Source: a virus. From it: a stretch of 36,012 nucleotides of DNA. The notes below the pieces were generated by a model. The model had not been told where the DNA came from. It ran no database searches and saw only the letters and a program-made list of their open reading frames with translations. The position numbers were made by a program, and so were the translations under genes. This document shows positions 6,393-22,927 of the stretch, one piece after another. The stretch lies in IMG/VR virus record IMGVR_UViG_3300027971_000122, positions 1 through 36,012 of that record. The stretch is one strand, 5' to 3'. Numbering within the stretch: the first letter of the stretch is position 1; every line of letters begins with the position of its first letter.

Positions 6393-9300
6393 ATGGCCTT
6401 CGATGTTGCAGGTGCCAAACAAGCCGGATATTCTGATATAGAAATTGCAGAGTTTTTAGGGCAACAAAAAAACTTTGATACACCGGCCGCAATAAAGGCC
6501 GGGTATTCTCCTTCGGAAATTATTGGGCATTTGGGCGCGTCAGAACCATCCGCTGCAAAAGGTGAGACTGGTTTCCTCCCATCCGTATACCGTGGCGGAC
6601 GTGGCCTTGCTTCGCTTGCAACAGATGTAATTCCGGCTATGGCGGGTAAAGCAGTTGGCGCTGAAGAGTTTGCTAATAGGAAGATGCAGGAAGCAGCAAA
6701 GTATCAGCAACAGACTGAGCAACTTTACCCTGCTGAAGTGGCATCATATAAAGACATCAAGGACGTAGGATCATTCCTGACGTATGTCAAGGAAGCTATT
6801 GGTGAAGCGGTTCCATCTATTGTGCCAAGTATATTTACCGGTGGCGCTGCTGCCGTATTGGGACGTGGAGCTACCGCTGCCGCACAACAAGCCGGTACAG
6901 CTTTGGCTAGGCGCGAACTTCTTGAAGCTACGGCTAAAGGAACTTTGACAAAAGAATTGCGTGATGAAATTAAAGAAAAAGCAATTCAAGCTGGCGCTAA
7001 AGCCGCTCAGCAATCTGTGCTTAAACAACAAGCCGCTGGCGCTTTAGCTGGATCGGCTGTACAAAACATACCCGATGTATATCAAAACATATACGAAACA
7101 ACGGGCCAACAGGATCTGGGTGCGGCCATTGCATTTGGTTCGTTTAACGCAGCATTAGATGCAATCACACCATTTAACGTGTTACGAAAGATGCAGAAGT
7201 CTGGCTTGGGTCCAGAAGAAATTGCGGCAGCGTGGTACAAACGTGCGGGTAAGGGCGCTGCTAAAGGATTTGTTACAGAGGGTGGAACAGAAGCTCTGCA
7301 AGAAGTTTCATCTGCTGCGGCTGAAAAGTTTGTAGATGAAAACCAAGATTTCTTTTCAAGCAAGAACTTTGATCGCTTCATAAATGCTGGATTAAAAGGC
7401 GGCTTTGGTGGTGCTGGCATTACGGCAACAACAGACGTAGCTTTTGGTAAATCAAAACCAGAAGCCAAACCAACACAAGAAAAAATACAAACCATTCCAG
7501 AACTTCCTGCTACAGAGGAAATTAAAAAACCTCCAGAAGTGCAACAATTAATAGATAGAGTTAGTGGCGTATCTCGGACAGAAGAGGAGCAAGTGCCTTT
7601 GACGGCGGAAGAAGCTCAGCGTCAACGCATCAACATGCTTCAACAAAAAATTGATGAAGATGCTAAGTTACAAGAGGATAAAGCTAGGAGTCAAGGGATT
7701 CCTCCAAGCGTTCCTCTTGCGCCGCCACAAGACGTAAGCAAGCCAAGTCTGTACGAAACGGAACTTCCTAAACCAACAGCCCAAGAAGATCTTGAGGCTA
7801 AGCAAGCAGAAATTGATCAGCTTCGTTTGGATGCTGGCTTGCCCACTGGCCCATCATCTAAAACACCCGGCATTCAACCCACAACTACTACGACAGAAGA
7901 AACTCTTAAGCCTAAGATCGTAGATGAAAGACCTCTACAAGAACGGGCTGCAAAGAACCGTTTGTTGGTATTGCAAAACATGCTTAAGAACGAGGGCGGT
8001 GATCCCAATAGTTTGAGCATAGTCCCACATCCAGAGGTTGAGGGTAAGTTTGCAATTCAATCTTTAGATGTACCGGTCAAGTTCCAAAAGGATTTGAAAG
8101 CTACTGCATCCAATAGGCCAGAGTCTCCGGTAACAATTGATCCTGTTAACGCCTATATTGAGATTGCTCGCAGGACAAACACGCCCGCATCCATGAGGCT
8201 GGTTAAAGACTTTGAAGAGGGCATCGTTACAAGAGAAGACATCGAGGCGGCAATTGAGGCTGAAAGAAAAGCCAACCAACCCATGCCGATTAACTACAAA
8301 GGAAACGGTGAGCCTTGGTTTATAGCCCCTGTAACTTACAAGCCTAGAGGTGAGCGAGTTATTACGGAGCCAATAGAAGAGGTGGATGATGTTACGGAAG
8401 ATCCAACCGTCGGAGAGGGTGTTGATCCACCAACCCCAACCACAGAAATGCCACAGACTCTGGGTGACTTCAAGTTAAGAATGCCCGCAGCATTTGACAA
8501 TCCCGATGTGAGAGCCGCCAATAAGAACGCCAGCTTCTCGGACTTGATGCAAGCATTGATGCAAAGCAAAAACCCCGTTATCAAAAGAATCGGTGAGCTT
8601 GGAAATCAAATTTCTAACCAAGTGACGCTTCAGAAAACAAAGTATCTTGGCAATAGATATGCTGGTCTGTACTATCCGGCATTAGATGCCATAAAGATAT
8701 CTCCCAAATATGCGGGAGATGAAACGACCAATGCACACGAAACGTTACATGCATTGATTTACAGAATGCAGAAGAATCCCACAACCAAGCAAAAGGTTGC
8801 GGTTAAAAAGATAGAAGATCTTTACCAGCACGTAAAGAGAGAACTAGCAAAACAGGGGATGGGATGGGACGGCAATAAGAAAAATAAGCAGTTTGCCGTT
8901 CAGGTATATGGATTGGCGGATCAGTATGAGTTTGCCGCTGAAGCGATGAGCAATCCAGAATTTCAATATATGTTGATGCAGATCCCATATGAAGGCAAGA
9001 GAAGTGCTTGGTCTGCATTCACTCAATATGTTGCGGAACTTCTTGGGATAAAAGACACAAACGCTTTAACTGAAATTTTAAATCTTGTTGACAAAATAGC
9101 CCAGACTAAGAGGCCAGCAAGGAACTATCTTTCAAGCAAAGTGGTCAGAAACGAGGTCGTATACAAAGAATCTGAAGAGGCCAAACGTGAGACAGCTCAA
9201 AAACCCGCCAAAAAAGGAGAGGAAAATGTTGCAAGATCTGACGAATCAACAGGTGGAACAGGCGTTCAAGTACCTGTACGAGCAGCCAATGAGCTTCCCG

Positions 9301-12300
9301 CCGCCCAAGGAGTTAAAGGAACTCAACAACGCGGAGTGGCTAGTGTTAGACCAACTCCTGCAAAACCTGCTGGCGGAGCGGGAGTACAACCCACTCCAAT
9401 AGGTCAAGAAACATTAAACATTCTTGATGAGTACGGAAGAAACGTAGAGAAGACTACAGAAAACAGGATTGAAAAATTCAAAGAAACTGTTAAAGATGCA
9501 GCACAAAATCCAAAGGTTACTTTGGACAATGCTCAGTCTGCCTTTACTAAATTCTTGAATTATCTTGAGACTAAGGTATTTAGTAGCGATGCCGCCCTCA
9601 ATAACGAAATCCGAAAATCAATGGGGGATCTGGGTGTGGACGCCAAGACCAAGATTGGAATGCTGTTGCAAACCAGCTTGAGCCAGACCGTTCATTCCGA
9701 TGCGGTGGCAAACCTGTTCCTTAGATATGGAAACATTGAATACAACAATGATCTAAAGAAGTGGGTCAAGAAGGACAGTGATGCCAGCTTTGTGGAGCTA
9801 TCTAGAAGGATAGACAAGATGGCGGAGAGAAGCGGCTTAACAAAAGAAGAGGCCGAGAGTACTGCACACTTTGCGTTTGAGGTTAAGAGAACAAAGTCGC
9901 TGATAAAGTTTAATGAAGATCTAAAGCAAAAGATTGCTGAAACTCGTGCAGAGGCTGCTCGTATAAAACAAAAATCTCCAGTTGCATCAAGCGAGCTTAG
10001 CAAGAAAGCGTCCAGCATGGAGGGTGATTTGAAATACATTCACTTTACAGATGAACAACTTGCCAGTGGAATCCTAGATAAGGGTATGAAACTGTTTAAC
10101 ATGCATCCAGATCTTAACGAAGCCGTAGATGTCTGGAACAAAATAAGAGACAACGCTTCCAAGGTTCTAGTTGACAGCGGACTGTGGAGCGCCTCCGATG
10201 CGGAGTTTTTGTTAAGCAACGCTGACTACGTTCCATTCTACCGAGAGGATCAGTTGGAGCAAGGCAAGGGTCCAAAGGAATATATCAAAGGTCTACAGGT
10301 ACAGGCCAAGGAAAGAAAGCTGAAGGGCTCTGCCAAGCCGGTCAACAACATTTTTGACAATCAGGTTCTCTGGGTGCAGTACTCCATTAACCGTGCCGTC
10401 AGAAACAAATCTGCCGTATCTTTGGCTGAAGCTGCCGAATCGGTTGGTGCTGCAAAAAGAATTAAAAATCTAGACAGCAAAGAGAACATTGGAGTTGTTG
10501 GCGTAGATGACAACAACAAACCAATAGCAGGAAAGGTTTCTGATGGTGCAGAGCCATTCAATTCTTTGCAGCAAGCCAATTTTGCAAATCAACAAATTGA
10601 AGGTTTTGAGGTTGTTGAGTTTGAAGATGACAATAAAAAAACAAAATACTTGTTGACACCAGCAGTTGAAAAGAAAAACGTTGTAAAGGTTTGGCGTAAC
10701 GGAAAGCAAGTTGAGTACAGCATGGAAGACCCTCTTTACATGGAGGCGTTTAACGGTCTTGAGTCTGTTGCAATACCCATGTTTAAGCTGTTCTCAAAGT
10801 TTGCCGACATGCTGAGACAGTCGGTTGTGATGTACCCATTGTTTACGATTAGTCAGATTCCTCAAGATTCTTTTGCGGCCATCTTCTCTTCTGGTTTAAA
10901 ACCTCAACACGCCTTAAAGATTCCAATTCTTGCGGTAAAGGAATTCATTCAAACACTCAGGGGCAAGAGTGCTACGCATGAAGAGTTAAAAAACGTCGGA
11001 GCTGTGGGTGTGAGAGATTTCACGTCGGCTATGGTGCGGATGGATGCGGAGATCTTTGCGGGAATAAAAGCTCCTCCCGGCGTTCTTGGAAAAGCTAAAG
11101 GATGGTTAAGTCATTTCGCTATGGCGGGCGATAACGCTGTGCGTCAGGCGGTTTATGAAGCATCTTTGGCTCAAGGTCTGAGTAAAGCTGAGGCTATGGA
11201 GAAAGCCTTTGATATCTTCAACGCCAGAAGAAAAGGATCTAGCAAGACCTTGGCTCTGGCTAGTCAGGTGATTCCGTTCTTTAACGCTTACCTCGCGGCG
11301 CAAAACGTGGCCTATAAAGTCATCACTGGACGGGGCGTATCCCCAACCCAGAGGGCGGATGCGTACAAAACATTAGCCGCTACCACGGGTTCCGTGATGG
11401 TCCTGTCTATTCTGTATTCCATGATTGCAAGCGACGATGACGATTACTTGGAGAAGCCAGTCGGCCAGAGGGATCGAGCCTTTATCATACCGGGTACTGG
11501 TGGGATGATGATTCCATTGAGGAAAGACTTGTTCACCATGCCCAAGGTTATTGCCGAGCATACGTACCTCATGTTGACGGACAAGGGATCTGAGGATGGA
11601 CGCAAGTTCAGGGACTCCGTGGCCGCTGGTTTGATGAGTTCAATCCTTGGTCCGACTCCAGTACCCCAAGCGATTAAACCTTTTGCAGAATGGTATCTAA
11701 ATTATGACTTCTATCAGCAGAAGCCACTGATCGGAACCTATCAAAAGAAGCTGGATACTGAGAGGCAGTTTAACGAATCCACCTCTGAACTATCTAAGCT
11801 GATAGGCCAGACCGGCTTGATCTCTCCAATTGTTTTGGATCATTTGGTACGTGGATTGTTTGGATCTGTTGGGGGTTCGGTTCTGTACATTACCAATCCG
11901 TTCCTTTACTCTGGGGCCAGCGGTGAGCGACCATCCATGTCTTTCCGGGACGCCGTAGCTACCTTGCCGGGCACAAGCGGATTCATCAGTAAGGAATACG
12001 AGAACGCCATGAAGCGGGACTTCTACGTCTTGAAAGATGAAGTAGACAAAGCCGCCAATACCTTTGCCGATCTGAAGACAAGAAGCCCGCAAGAGATTGA
12101 GGAGTTCTTGAAAGACGAGAAGAACGTGGCAAGGGTCGGTATGAGCAAGTCCGTCAACAAGATTGCGGATCAGCTATCCAAGCTGCGTAAATATATGGAG
12201 CAGGTCAGGAACTCGGATATGCCCGCCGATGAAAAGCGCGACAGGATAAAAGAGTTAAAGGAATCAGAGTCCAACATGATGAAGAACATCGACGTTAAAG

Positions 12301-12326
12301 CTCTGAGAGAGATGGGTAAAATTTAA
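6393..12326 (+). CDS. Giant internal virion protein with HExxH metallopeptidase-like motif, 1977 aa
   Basis: The N-terminus carries two copies of an AGYSxxEIxxxLG motif (residues 11-23 and 36-48). A hydrophobic Ala/Gly region (about 145-240) follows, with EGGTEALQE near 300, then charged and Pro-rich linkers. Residues 782-786 read HETLH, and Glu846 or Glu850 in YEFAAEAMSNPEF could be the third zinc ligand of a zincin. This matches metallopeptidase modules in phage polyvalent/virion proteins. A Pro/Gly/Ala linker (about 940-1005) hosts another gene in a second frame. The C-terminal half has a hydrophobic segment near 1660-1677 followed by DDDDY, resembling the large polyvalent-protein domain LPD38. 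It is probably ejected with the DNA. Its stop overlaps the opposing gene stop in TTAA. Confidence 0.8.
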   Translation: MAFDVAGAKQAGYSDIEIAEFLGQQKNFDTPAAIKAGYSPSEIIGHLGASEPSAAKGETGFLPSVYRGGRGLASLATDVIPAMAGKAVGAEEFANRKMQEAAKYQQQTEQLYPAEVASYKDIKDVGSFLTYVKEAIGEAVPSIVPSIFTGGAAAVLGRGATAAAQQAGTALARRELLEATAKGTLTKELRDEIKEKAIQAGAKAAQQSVLKQQAAGALAGSAVQNIPDVYQNIYETTGQQDLGAAIAFGSFNAALDAITPFNVLRKMQKSGLGPEEIAAAWYKRAGKGAAKGFVTEGGTEALQEVSSAAAEKFVDENQDFFSSKNFDRFINAGLKGGFGGAGITATTDVAFGKSKPEAKPTQEKIQTIPELPATEEIKKPPEVQQLIDRVSGVSRTEEEQVPLTAEEAQRQRINMLQQKIDEDAKLQEDKARSQGIPPSVPLAPPQDVSKPSLYETELPKPTAQEDLEAKQAEIDQLRLDAGLPTGPSSKTPGIQPTTTTTEETLKPKIVDERPLQERAAKNRLLVLQNMLKNEGGDPNSLSIVPHPEVEGKFAIQSLDVPVKFQKDLKATASNRPESPVTIDPVNAYIEIARRTNTPASMRLVKDFEEGIVTREDIEAAIEAERKANQPMPINYKGNGEPWFIAPVTYKPRGERVITEPIEEVDDVTEDPTVGEGVDPPTPTTEMPQTLGDFKLRMPAAFDNPDVRAANKNASFSDLMQALMQSKNPVIKRIGELGNQISNQVTLQKTKYLGNRYAGLYYPALDAIKISPKYAGDETTNAHETLHALIYRMQKNPTTKQKVAVKKIEDLYQHVKRELAKQGMGWDGNKKNKQFAVQVYGLADQYEFAAEAMSNPEFQYMLMQIPYEGKRSAWSAFTQYVAELLGIKDTNALTEILNLVDKIAQTKRPARNYLSSKVVRNEVVYKESEEAKRETAQKPAKKGEENVARSDESTGGTGVQVPVRAANELPAAQGVKGTQQRGVASVRPTPAKPAGGAGVQPTPIGQETLNILDEYGRNVEKTTENRIEKFKETVKDAAQNPKVTLDNAQSAFTKFLNYLETKVFSSDAALNNEIRKSMGDLGVDAKTKIGMLLQTSLSQTVHSDAVANLFLRYGNIEYNNDLKKWVKKDSDASFVELSRRIDKMAERSGLTKEEAESTAHFAFEVKRTKSLIKFNEDLKQKIAETRAEAARIKQKSPVASSELSKKASSMEGDLKYIHFTDEQLASGILDKGMKLFNMHPDLNEAVDVWNKIRDNASKVLVDSGLWSASDAEFLLSNADYVPFYREDQLEQGKGPKEYIKGLQVQAKERKLKGSAKPVNNIFDNQVLWVQYSINRAVRNKSAVSLAEAAESVGAAKRIKNLDSKENIGVVGVDDNNKPIAGKVSDGAEPFNSLQQANFANQQIEGFEVVEFEDDNKKTKYLLTPAVEKKNVVKVWRNGKQVEYSMEDPLYMEAFNGLESVAIPMFKLFSKFADMLRQSVVMYPLFTISQIPQDSFAAIFSSGLKPQHALKIPILAVKEFIQTLRGKSATHEELKNVGAVGVRDFTSAMVRMDAEIFAGIKAPPGVLGKAKGWLSHFAMAGDNAVRQAVYEASLAQGLSKAEAMEKAFDIFNARRKGSSKTLALASQVIPFFNAYLAAQNVAYKVITGRGVSPTQRADAYKTLAATTGSVMVLSILYSMIASDDDDYLEKPVGQRDRAFIIPGTGGMMIPLRKDLFTMPKVIAEHTYLMLTDKGSEDGRKFRDSVAAGLMSSILGPTPVPQAIKPFAEWYLNYDFYQQKPLIGTYQKKLDTERQFNESTSELSKLIGQTGLISPIVLDHLVRGLFGSVGGSVLYITNPFLYSGASGERPSMSFRDAVATLPGTSGFISKEYENAMKRDFYVLKDEVDKAANTFADLKTRSPQEIEEFLKDEKNVARVGMSKSVNKIADQLSKLRKYMEQVRNSDMPADEKRDRIKELKESESNMMKNIDVKALREMGKI
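9214..9219 (+). promoter_or_regulatory. Strong internal ribosome binding site
   Basis: AAGGAG sits six bases before the ATG at 9226, deep inside the giant virion gene. The surrounding codons of the host frame (AKKGEEN) would not need this exact sequence, so it supports independent initiation of the embedded gene. Confidence 0.6.
9226..9402 (+). CDS. Embedded overlapping gene, 58-aa helical protein
   Basis: This ORF lies wholly inside the giant virion gene in the +1 frame. ATG at 9226 follows AAGGAGAGGAAA, a strong Shine-Dalgarno at 9214-9219 with six bases of spacing. The product (MLQDLTNQQVEQAFKYLYEQ at its start) has regular hydrophobic spacing, a central PPPKELKELNNAEW segment and LLQNLLAER near the end, so it looks like two or three helices. 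The host frame here encodes a Pro/Gly/Ala/Thr linker of low complexity, which is where overprinting is tolerated. It resembles short phage proteins with a PPKxLxxL...W pattern that I vaguely recall. Function unknown; no membrane helix. Confidence 0.65.
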   Translation: MLQDLTNQQVEQAFKYLYEQPMSFPPPKELKELNNAEWLVLDQLLQNLLAEREYNPLQ

Positions 12327-14769: not shown

Positions 14770-14845
14770 TGGTGCCGGATGTCGGATTCGAACTGACGAC
14801 CTACCGCTTACAAGGCGGTTGCTCTACCAACTGAGCTAATCCGGC
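14770..14845 (-). tRNA. tRNA-Thr (anticodon UGU) with encoded CCA
   Basis: Read on the minus strand, the 76 bases fold as a cloverleaf: acceptor GCCGGAT/ATCCGGC, D stem GCTC/GAGC, anticodon stem ACCGC/GCGGT with loop CTTGTAA (anticodon TGT, reading ACA), T loop TTCGAAT, discriminator A and encoded CCA. The T stem (GTCAG/CCGAC) contains one A-C mismatch. The first ten bases overlap the end of the upstream nuclease gene, whose TAG stop is tRNA positions 8-10. It is transcribed with the leftward operon, so it must be excised from mRNA. Confidence 0.95.
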
Positions 14846-21142: not shown

Positions 21143-21442
21143 ATGAGAGCTAGACGAGTCGATGAGAACCAGCAAGAGATCGTAGACGCCCTGAGAAATG
21201 CGGGGGCGACAGTTAGAGTAGTAACACAAGGAGAGGGGATCCCCGATCTTCTAGTTGGCTACACCGGACCGAGCGGGGTAGGGCATACGCTTTTACTCGA
21301 AGTTAAAGACGGCAACAAACCTCCCAGCGCGAGAAAGCTCACGGCGGCAGAGGAGAAGTTCTTCTTAGAATGGACAGGAGGAATCCTAGCCATAGTGAAA
21401 AGTCCGCAAGAAGCCCTTGATTTAATTCACAGCTTAGATTAA
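21143..21442 (+). CDS. VRR-NUC-like PD-(D/E)XK nuclease, 99 aa
   Basis: ATG at 21143 follows GAGGACGAG. The motif chain E12, then GIPDLLVGY (Pro34-Asp35), then LLEVKDG (Glu53, Lys55) is the PD-(D/E)XK catalytic core of VRR-NUC and Holliday-junction-resolvase-like phage enzymes. PPSARKLTAAEEKFF after it is typical of the small phage version. Likely substrate: branched or structured DNA. It is the first rightward gene of region A, behind three LexA-like boxes, and is followed by a strong terminator, so it forms its own transcription unit. Confidence 0.75.
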   Translation: MRARRVDENQQEIVDALRNAGATVRVVTQGEGIPDLLVGYTGPSGVGHTLLLEVKDGNKPPSARKLTAAEEKFFLEWTGGILAIVKSPQEALDLIHSLD

Positions 21443-21483
21443 AATTTGCACAACTGTGGAAACGCAGTTGCCTAGTTGGTTTA

Positions 21484-21509
21484 AGGAGGGTTAGTCCCTC
21501 CTTTTTTTT
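21484..21509 (+). terminator. Rho-independent terminator
   Basis: Stem AGGAGGG/CCCTCCT with loop TTAGT runs into a T tract. It ends the nuclease transcript just before the next promoter. Confidence 0.9.
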
Positions 21510-21512
21510 CGC

Positions 21513-21541
21513 TTGACGTTTTGTGCGAATGAGAGTAAAAT
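21513..21541 (+). promoter_or_regulatory. Near-consensus sigma70 promoter of the non-coding region
   Basis: TTGACG, 17 bases and TAAAAT lie directly after the terminator. No start codon with a ribosome site follows for more than 500 bases, so the transcript begins as non-coding RNA around 21548. Confidence 0.75.
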
Positions 21542-21547
21542 CGAGGG

Positions 21548-22088
21548 GCTAGGTGTGGAAGCCAAGTATGAAAGTCGTTAGAGAAATCCCGACCCCGAAT
21601 GGGGTAGCATCCTCCGCACAAGGGTGTTCTTCCACCGGGGTTTCTTTAACGGCTTTTTTCATTTCACATCTAGATTGTTTCAAGGAACTATCGGGTTTTA
21701 GATTGGCATGAGGGAAGCGTAGGAAACCATGAGGTGTAGTCCGCAGTCCACCAGTCTTACAACGTTCCGCCTTGAGATGAAAGTGCTGGAAGATGCATGG
21801 CACAATCGGGGGGATTCCATTTCGACCCGTGGGTTCAAGTCCTGCGGCTTATCGGGATGGTATGGGCAGCCGAGCTAGACGTTTCCAATGTAACGGAAAG
21901 TGCCCATAGGTGATACGAATTGGATCGAGATCGCTCCACACGGAATACTCAGCTTGTGGCTCCGGGGATGTGGAAATTTGCCGAAGGGAACGCGCTTCCC
22001 CTAGGCAGAATTTCGTCCAGCCGAGCCTATCTGTCCACCAAGGATGTACAAAACTCCCCTTATCCTTATCCATCCCTTCCACCACCTA
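21548..22088 (+). ncRNA. Candidate large structured non-coding RNA (about 540 nt)
   Basis: No protein-like frame occupies this region, yet it is dense in helices. 21570-21591 pairs with 21636-21657 (22 bp, four G-U wobbles). 21555-21561 pairs with 21629-21635, making an H-type pseudoknot that would stack directly on that helix. Others: 21592-21596/21601-21605; 21675-21685/21770-21780 (11 bp, wobble-rich); 21861-21868/21901-21908 (8 bp); 21974-21982/22004-22013 capped by 21986-21990/21996-22000. Bases 21829-21845 form a tRNA-like T arm (GTGGG, TTCAAGT, CCTGC). UAGGUG at 21550 can pair with CACCUA at 22083, closing the ends. It has its own promoter and precedes the ParB-like gene promoter. The 3' end is a guess. 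A shorter RNA ending at the T run 21654-21659 is possible. I cannot assign it to GOLLD, ROOL or another known family by eye. Confidence 0.6.
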
Positions 22089-22109
22089 CATCAGGGTTTA
22101 TCCTAGGTG

Positions 22110-22137
22110 TTGACATGAGATCGGATCTGTTTATAAT
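22110..22137 (+). promoter_or_regulatory. Consensus sigma70 promoter of the ParB-like gene
   Basis: Perfect TTGACA, 16-base spacer and perfect TATAAT end 19 bases before the ATG at 22157. The predicted leader is about 13 nt and contains AGGAG. Confidence 0.8.
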
Positions 22138-22156
22138 CCAAGTTTTAGGAGATGAG

Positions 22157-22927
22157 ATGCTAGTAGAGAAGATACGGATTGATTGTGGTACACAGTCGAG
22201 GGAGAAGATTGATCAGCAGGTGGTTAGTGACTACGCTGTTGCCCTCAAGGAGGGCGCTAAGTTCCCCGCCGTGGTGGTTTTCCACGATGGTTTGGAGTAC
22301 TACTTAGCGGATGGATTCCACAGGTATTTAGCTCACGTCCAAGCCGGACGGTCTGAGATCGAAGCAGAAGTAAAGAACGGTACTCTTAGAGACGCGATTC
22401 TTTACAGTCTCTCTGCTAATGACACACATGGTTTAAGAAGGACGAATGCGGATAAACGCAAGTCCGTGATGACTCTTCTTGAAGATGAGGAATGGAAACA
22501 ATGGTCGAGTTCCGAGATCTCTCGGTCTTGTAAGGTTTCTACGGTATTTGTTATTAAGATCAGGAATGCTTTAGGTGACAAGCCAGAAGTGGTGAAGATC
22601 AACCGAAACGGGAAGGTCGAAGAGCGTAAATCTGAGCACAAGAAACCCGAGGTCACCCCTCAAGTCACCCCTCAAGATGAGAAGGATGACGCCCTTCAGA
22701 TCCTATTGGAGGAGAACCAAAAGCTCACGGATAAGCTAACCCTAGCTGCTCTGCCCGAGGAGGATCGCTTCTTGGCTGAAATGGAAATAGAAGATTTAAG
22801 GGAGGAACTAAGGTTAACCAAGATAGAACTGGAGGCTGTTAAGATTTCTAGAGATCAGTTCCAAGCAGAAAATGCACAGCTAAAGCGACAAATTGCCGCG
22901 ATGCAGAGAAGCAAAGCGACAAATTAA
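22157..22927 (+). CDS. ParB-like nuclease-fold DNA-binding protein, 256 aa
   Basis: ATG at 22157 has AGGAG five bases upstream and sits just behind a consensus promoter. A longer frame from 21920 overlaps the structured RNA and is not protein-like. The N-terminal domain resembles ParB/sulfiredoxin: FPAVVVFHDGLEYYLADGFH (about residues 36-55), including the GxHRxxAH motif (53-60). A helix-turn-helix-like stretch SSSEISRSCKVSTVFVIKIR follows, then a linker with a VTPQ repeat and a C-terminal coiled coil (about 185-250). It may load on specific DNA sites for replication or segregation, or regulate transcription. It heads the helicase/primase unit. Confidence 0.7.
   Translation: MLVEKIRIDCGTQSREKIDQQVVSDYAVALKEGAKFPAVVVFHDGLEYYLADGFHRYLAHVQAGRSEIEAEVKNGTLRDAILYSLSANDTHGLRRTNADKRKSVMTLLEDEEWKQWSSSEISRSCKVSTVFVIKIRNALGDKPEVVKINRNGKVEERKSEHKKPEVTPQVTPQDEKDDALQILLEENQKLTDKLTLAALPEEDRFLAEMEIEDLREELRLTKIELEAVKISRDQFQAENAQLKRQIAAMQRSKATN

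Follow-up and report, generated by a model that had tools for sequence, protein, structure and literature searches.

The 36,012-base virus record analyzed here (hereafter the window, to which all positions refer) encodes, on the + strand from 21548 to about 22050, a structured non-coding RNA preceded by a dedicated sigma-70 promoter. We favor, with a probability of roughly 0.6, the reading that it is a standalone, modular, phage-encoded non-coding RNA of about 500 nt that acts in trans, its expression being predicted from sequence. It is one member of a widespread modular family of phage RNAs that is apparently undescribed.

Upstream of the RNA, an endonuclease-like gene (21143-21442) ends in an intrinsic terminator (21483-21509, +; 8-bp stem, 5-nt loop and T-run), which is followed by the sigma-70 promoter of the RNA (TTGACG-17-TAAAAT; 21513-21541, +) with a predicted start at about 21548. 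Downstream, a ParB-like gene (phrog_1033; 22157-22927, +), a neighbor that lies outside the RNA, has a separate consensus promoter (TTGACA-16-TATAAT; 22110-22137, +); helicase and primase genes come next, and terminase and portal genes are located further to the right. The terminator and both promoters had been claimed in an earlier, sequence-only reading, and all three were found just as it had described them. The same reading had proposed a large RNA within 21513-22110. Its placement between the two promoters stands, but its limits are narrower, since the predicted start is at about 21548 and conservation stops near 22048 rather than at 22110. Elsewhere in the window, the sole tRNA gene is a tRNA-Thr (TGT) at 14773-14845 (-), and a 1977-aa virion protein (6393-12326, +) matches the virion structural family phrog_6958 in its N-terminal part and, weakly (E 1e-6), phrog_2206, a family of virion RNA polymerases.

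Approximately 30 distinct homologues of the RNA were identified in viral contigs. A search with the ParB-like protein yielded 44 viral loci, and nhmmer with the RNA region then detected diverged copies, some of which sit at another distance from the ParB-like gene. Further copies were added by a degenerate DNA pattern, and profile iteration brought the profile set to 31 distinct copies, to which L209, L233, L234 and MW202426.1 are to be added; a shorter degenerate pattern hit three contigs, all of them chance matches. The covariance model of the core recovered MW202426.1 (138.6 bits) and L171 (103.7 bits), both outside its training set. In bacterial genomes, none of 26 exact pattern matches was confirmed by profile or model, and a model of the 5' domain (R2) gave only two 50-base matches in 300 genomes, both judged terminator-like. 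Plasmids, searched with one body type, gave zero matches. Close copies did not turn up in any cultured phage, and the convincing matches in the phage collection are uncultured Manatee Spring genomes. As the sequence-only reading had suggested, the region has no coding signal: on average, every frame is interrupted by about four or more stops in each homologue, the lengths of the core are distributed among the three residues modulo 3, and no protein frame is conserved across the region. A protein-coding reading is thus ruled out by stops and indels.

Comparison of these homologues demonstrates strong covariation in a conserved body of about 390 nt (21660-22048, +), for which 98 consensus pairs were predicted, 55 of them with changes on both sides (30 sequences, upstream domain helix included). 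In a 22-sequence alignment of the core (mean pairwise identity 69%, minimum 54%), RNAalifold gave 60 pairs, of which 41 are double-changed. When alignment cells were counted directly, 94.5% were paired and 206 double changes were observed versus 62 in shuffles, and the covariation score collapses on sliding partners. The interpretation as a large structured RNA is therefore supported by both homologues and covariation. Paired positions hold 345 G-U versus 74 A-C cells, and this excess fixes the strand as +. Two elements noticed in the single sequence also recur in relatives. The wobble-rich long helix of the domain, in which about 21674-21684 pairs with about 21770-21780, retains eight consensus pairs, each with at least one double change, and the T-arm-like hairpin CCGUGGG-UUCAAGU-CCUGCGG (21827-21847, +), whose loop UUCAAGU is a T-loop, keeps its stem across relatives, with either a T-loop or, in some, a GNRA tetraloop. 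Such an exchange would be expected of a tertiary docking loop.

The body is preceded by a 5' pseudoknot domain (21548-21660, +), which is defined by the R2 match, the pair counts of relatives and its fold. It consists of a start hairpin (21547-21563), the loop of which (21555-21559) pairs with 21631-21635, and a long closing helix (21570-21591 with 21636-21657) that runs into a U6 tract (21654-21659). The 22-bp closing helix described previously is present in the minimum-energy fold, and the fold of the 118-nt domain has a z of -5.9, with no shuffle equaling it. For the whole 570 nt, z is only moderate (-2.3 versus shuffles), so that thermodynamics alone is insufficient to settle the structure. 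The proposed pseudoknot is retained as a topology: the helix formed by loop and strand reaches 99.7% pairing across 47 diverged relatives, and five of its seven pairs are double-changed. Across the domain, 184 double changes were counted versus 57.5 in shuffles. While the sequence varies, the architecture is kept exactly, with a 5-bp hairpin with an 8-nt loop at the very start, pairing of this loop with a strand inside the long stem, and a U-tract directly after the stem. R2, whose alignment does not contain the window, matches it at 21549-21659 (E 4e-5), and each of the eight whole records searched has one match. A promoter scoring at least 9/12 is located within 60 bases upstream in 75% of the 101 distinct 5'-domain relatives listed, versus 9% of shuffles. 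These promoters mostly end 6-9 nt before the domain, a spacing also seen in the window, and given this fixed distance transcription should begin at the first base of the domain.

Because the 5' domain closes with a terminator-like stem and U-tract, most transcripts might stop near 21660, which is a point against the standalone long RNA. It is conceivable that the domain alone is functional, as an sRNA that stops at the U-tract after about 110 nt, with the remainder unrelated to it; a stable stem followed by U6 would suit such an RNA. However, the body shows strong covariation of its own on the same strand, no promoter was found between the 5' domain and the body, and a recognizable body follows nearly all non-truncated 5' domains, which makes this explanation very improbable. 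A conserved body past the U-tract without its own promoter implies that a transcript longer than about 110 nt should be made.

Examination of the 5' domain beyond the relatives of the window revealed more than 90 distinct phage sequences in which the same pseudoknot stands in front of one of several unrelated 3' bodies. A 15-base segment of the domain was detected in at least 120 viral stretches, and its closing strand and U-tract are present in 101 of 108 distinct contexts among the matches listed. The bodies following it fall into several sequence classes, only one of which is in Rfam, namely Betaproteobacteria-1 (RF02932), found in L190 and MW202545.1. In L002, the segment 1234-1926, compared with 21400-22160 of the window, has near-identical flanks but, at the same site, a different 3' body and another type of 5' domain; the pair is a natural module swap, promoter to promoter. 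Conversely, bodies of the window type were found with two further types of 5' module (in L041 and L072, and in L048, L059 and L080), both of which also end in a closing stem and U-run. Taken together, the swapped body of L002 and the alternative 5' modules indicate module exchange in both directions. The window itself has the 5' pseudoknot domain, the promoter spacing and the 3' module of the family, in which GGCUCC and CACCA are each followed by a repeat copy. The family is absent from Rfam 15 except for the one body type, and a literature search, which did not extend to subscription papers so that an earlier description is possible, found no description of it. None of this modularity could be recognized from the single sequence, and the sequence-only reading missed the family with its exchangeable bodies as well as the covarying 3'-terminal direct repeat.

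Several additional observations were made in the course of this survey. The commonest other bodies (L115, L129, L144, L145 and L188) end with CACCCUUGG...CCUAUG just before a gene start; they have no clear covarying repeat, and their 3' module may be of another kind. In 37 loci (L043, L049, L060, L056, L117 and others), a distinct small hairpin motif, GGGUUAGCGCC...CACUGCUUUAUGUGAGC, was detected, which follows the 5' domain in many relatives and precedes the promoter in others; it is absent from the window and is probably another undescribed small phage RNA. In MW202545.1 (L113:3341-4208), the promoter and an RNA with a Betaproteobacteria-1 body come immediately after a tRNA array, one member of which has a weak tRNA-Sec score.

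The RNA is neither GOLLD nor ROOL, the two large phage RNAs to which the sequence-only reading could not match it by eye. Over the RNA, neither of their covariance models has a match, whether at the gathering score or with E relaxed to 10, nor do they match in 19 homologue loci; other Rfam families went unmatched as well, all matches at lax thresholds being chance-level. GOLLD is a large ornate RNA of phages and prophages with a variable 5' half and a conserved 3' half, often near tRNAs (PMC12286853). The window RNA, likewise large, ornate and phage-encoded, resembles it in kind at most, being shorter, with other conserved sequence and without a model match; relatives in L050, L078 and MW202545.1 adjoin tRNA genes, whereas the sole tRNA of the window is about 7 kb off. 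A homo-oligomeric cage is another feature of GOLLD. ROOL is also encoded by phages and prophages, contains pseudoknots and lies near tRNA islands in some cases (PMC12286853). The window RNA shares the phage origin and a pseudoknot with it, but has a different architecture and no Rfam match. One known family is directly linked to the modular RNAs, namely Betaproteobacteria-1, which forms the 3' body on the same kind of 5' pseudoknot in MW202545.1 and L190. Its model matches these other members of the modular family at 100 bits, leaves the body of the window unmatched, and spans only 120 nt of the larger RNA.

With regard to function, the RNA could instead be a cis-acting leader, that is, a giant 5' UTR or a processive-antitermination element that modifies polymerase for downstream delayed-early or late genes, with the 5' stem and U-tract as its gate. 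Its own promoter and terminator-like 5' domain would be consistent with such a role. In many relatives, moreover, the 3' end lies from a few to about 25 nt before the next start codon, which is often co-directional, and this counts against a standalone RNA. The downstream proteins, read from sequence as HNH-like, terminase-small-subunit-like and antiterminator-Q-like, point to an early/late junction, and antitermination would be indifferent to the identity of the gene. However, an independent consensus promoter lies between the RNA and the next gene in the window and in several relatives (L040, L041 and the L043/L034 group), no clear co-directional gene follows the RNA in L051 and L056, and 26 of the 110 nearest downstream ORFs, as called by a crude caller, are antiparallel. 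The ornate conserved body of about 390 nt is also oversized for antitermination, and known antitermination elements need far less. The HK022 put and EAR elements, structured antitermination RNAs located near promoters upstream of phage or operon genes, would be comparable if the window RNA acts in cis, but its body is much larger and a second promoter precedes the next gene. We thus regard a leader, although it is the main rival reading, as rather unlikely, and a mere leader of the ParB-like gene is ruled out by varying neighbors and the intervening second promoter. Action in trans is favored because the neighboring gene varies by phage, a second promoter intervenes and the conserved body is large. 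Among the neighbors, the gene after the RNA reads as a small HNH-type endonuclease in L049, L055, L060 and L209, and as a terminase small subunit in L080, which places the RNA there at the early/packaging junction.

The most specific feature of the RNA is a direct repeat at its 3' end. In the window, a conserved GGCUCC is followed by GGAUGU (21966-21971; whole element 21958-21971, +), and the conserved CACCA at the RNA end is followed by a second GGAUGU (22042-22047; whole element 22036-22047, +). The same arrangement, in which the 6-9 nt after GGCUCC recur after the terminal CACCA, is shared by four body types, the window type among them, and L190 with its Betaproteobacteria-1 body carries it as well; it was not recognized in the commonest other body types. 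The repeated sequence itself varies among phages (GGAUGU, GAAUGU, GGGAGUG, AAGGACAC, AUGAGUAAU, UCGUGGAAG and others), and the independently found MW202426.1 has AAGGAAACA twice. In 35 distinct homologues, a set partly selected for a run of at least 6, the shared run has a mean of 6.94 nt versus 3.73 with the second site permuted (maximum 4.34). A cleaner, unfiltered test with 21 window-type homologues gave 6.67 versus 4.00 (maximum 5.10 in 2000 permutations). In the 15 of these with a fixed register, five of the six positions are identical between the copies in all, and the sixth in 14. In a shortened relative without the 3' hairpin (L171:7037-7348, -), the copies are split only by CACC (UCGUC-CACC-UCGUC).

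These data suggest that the two repeat copies are constrained by a single partner outside the RNA. A search for a complementary partner, exact or with G-U pairs, in the 5' domain, body, flanks and promoter revealed none above permutation. The copies are not phased on the DNA helix either, as their spacing, mostly 73-80 nt and in a few cases 56-68 nt, is not quantized. Only one partner would follow the repeat automatically, namely the strand of DNA at the 3' boundary, which led to the proposal of an R-loop.

Alternatively, the RNA could be an RNA-guided or self-targeting element, with the internal repeat guiding it to the DNA at its 3' boundary for homing, insertion or the priming of replication. 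The internal segment equals the 3' flank, is hence complementary to the template strand and co-varies with the flank position by position; the missing internal partner and the swapping of bodies between phages also fit. A precedent is ColE1 RNA II, a non-coding transcript whose start lies about 550 bp upstream of the origin and which remains bound to the template in a persistent RNA-DNA hybrid (PMC5043065). Like RNA II, a structured transcript of about 550 nt, the window RNA is structured and driven by its own promoter, and the two would be mechanistically close if priming applies, but they have no sequence relation. The cumulative GC-skew minimum of the window (20.6 kb) is near the RNA but coincides with a gene-strand switch, and in MW202426.1 the minimum is near 0 while the RNA is at 7.7 kb, so that the skew does not support an RNA-linked origin in this phage. 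Among the window proteins searched, none was recognized as a guide-dependent nuclease, a recombinase or a reverse transcriptase. With respect to omega RNAs of the HEARO/IscB type in particular, the window has no Rfam match and no adjacent guide-dependent nuclease, the neighbors being an endonuclease-like protein, the ParB-like protein, a helicase and a primase. Furthermore, the close pair L055 and L060 differ by one base that is matched in both repeat copies, which points to ongoing coupling rather than a fresh insertion. We therefore consider self-targeting improbable.

For the standalone RNA acting in trans, the following mode of action can be proposed. Host sigma-70 RNA polymerase would start the transcript at the 5' pseudoknot domain, pass the U-tract and run through the conserved body to the CACCA end. 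As a folded RNA or RNP, the product would act in trans and not solely as a leader, and the pseudoknot may serve as a stability cap, as a conditional terminator that sets the yield of the long RNA, or as both. The copy of the downstream flank inside the 3' module would recognize the same partner as the flank itself. In the weakest step of this model, we tentatively suggest the simplest such partner, the complementary strand of the DNA at the point where the RNA ends, held in an R-loop or persistent hybrid. It is quite speculative to extend this to a widespread family with one 5' head and many bodies, whose internal guide copy forms an RNA-DNA hybrid past the 3' end, and to assign that hybrid a use in replication priming, in marking packaging or recombination sites, or in defining the 3' end of the RNA itself.

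Large ornate RNAs such as GOLLD, ROOL and OLE are rare, and their functions are mostly open. The present analysis adds an apparently undescribed family of phage RNAs in which a common 5' pseudoknot is combined with interchangeable bodies and with a 3' module that contains the covarying repeat; the orphan Rfam family Betaproteobacteria-1 thereby becomes part of a larger phage RNA. To our knowledge, no other large ornate RNA has a comparable covarying direct repeat, and this repeat provides a sharp and specific clue to function.
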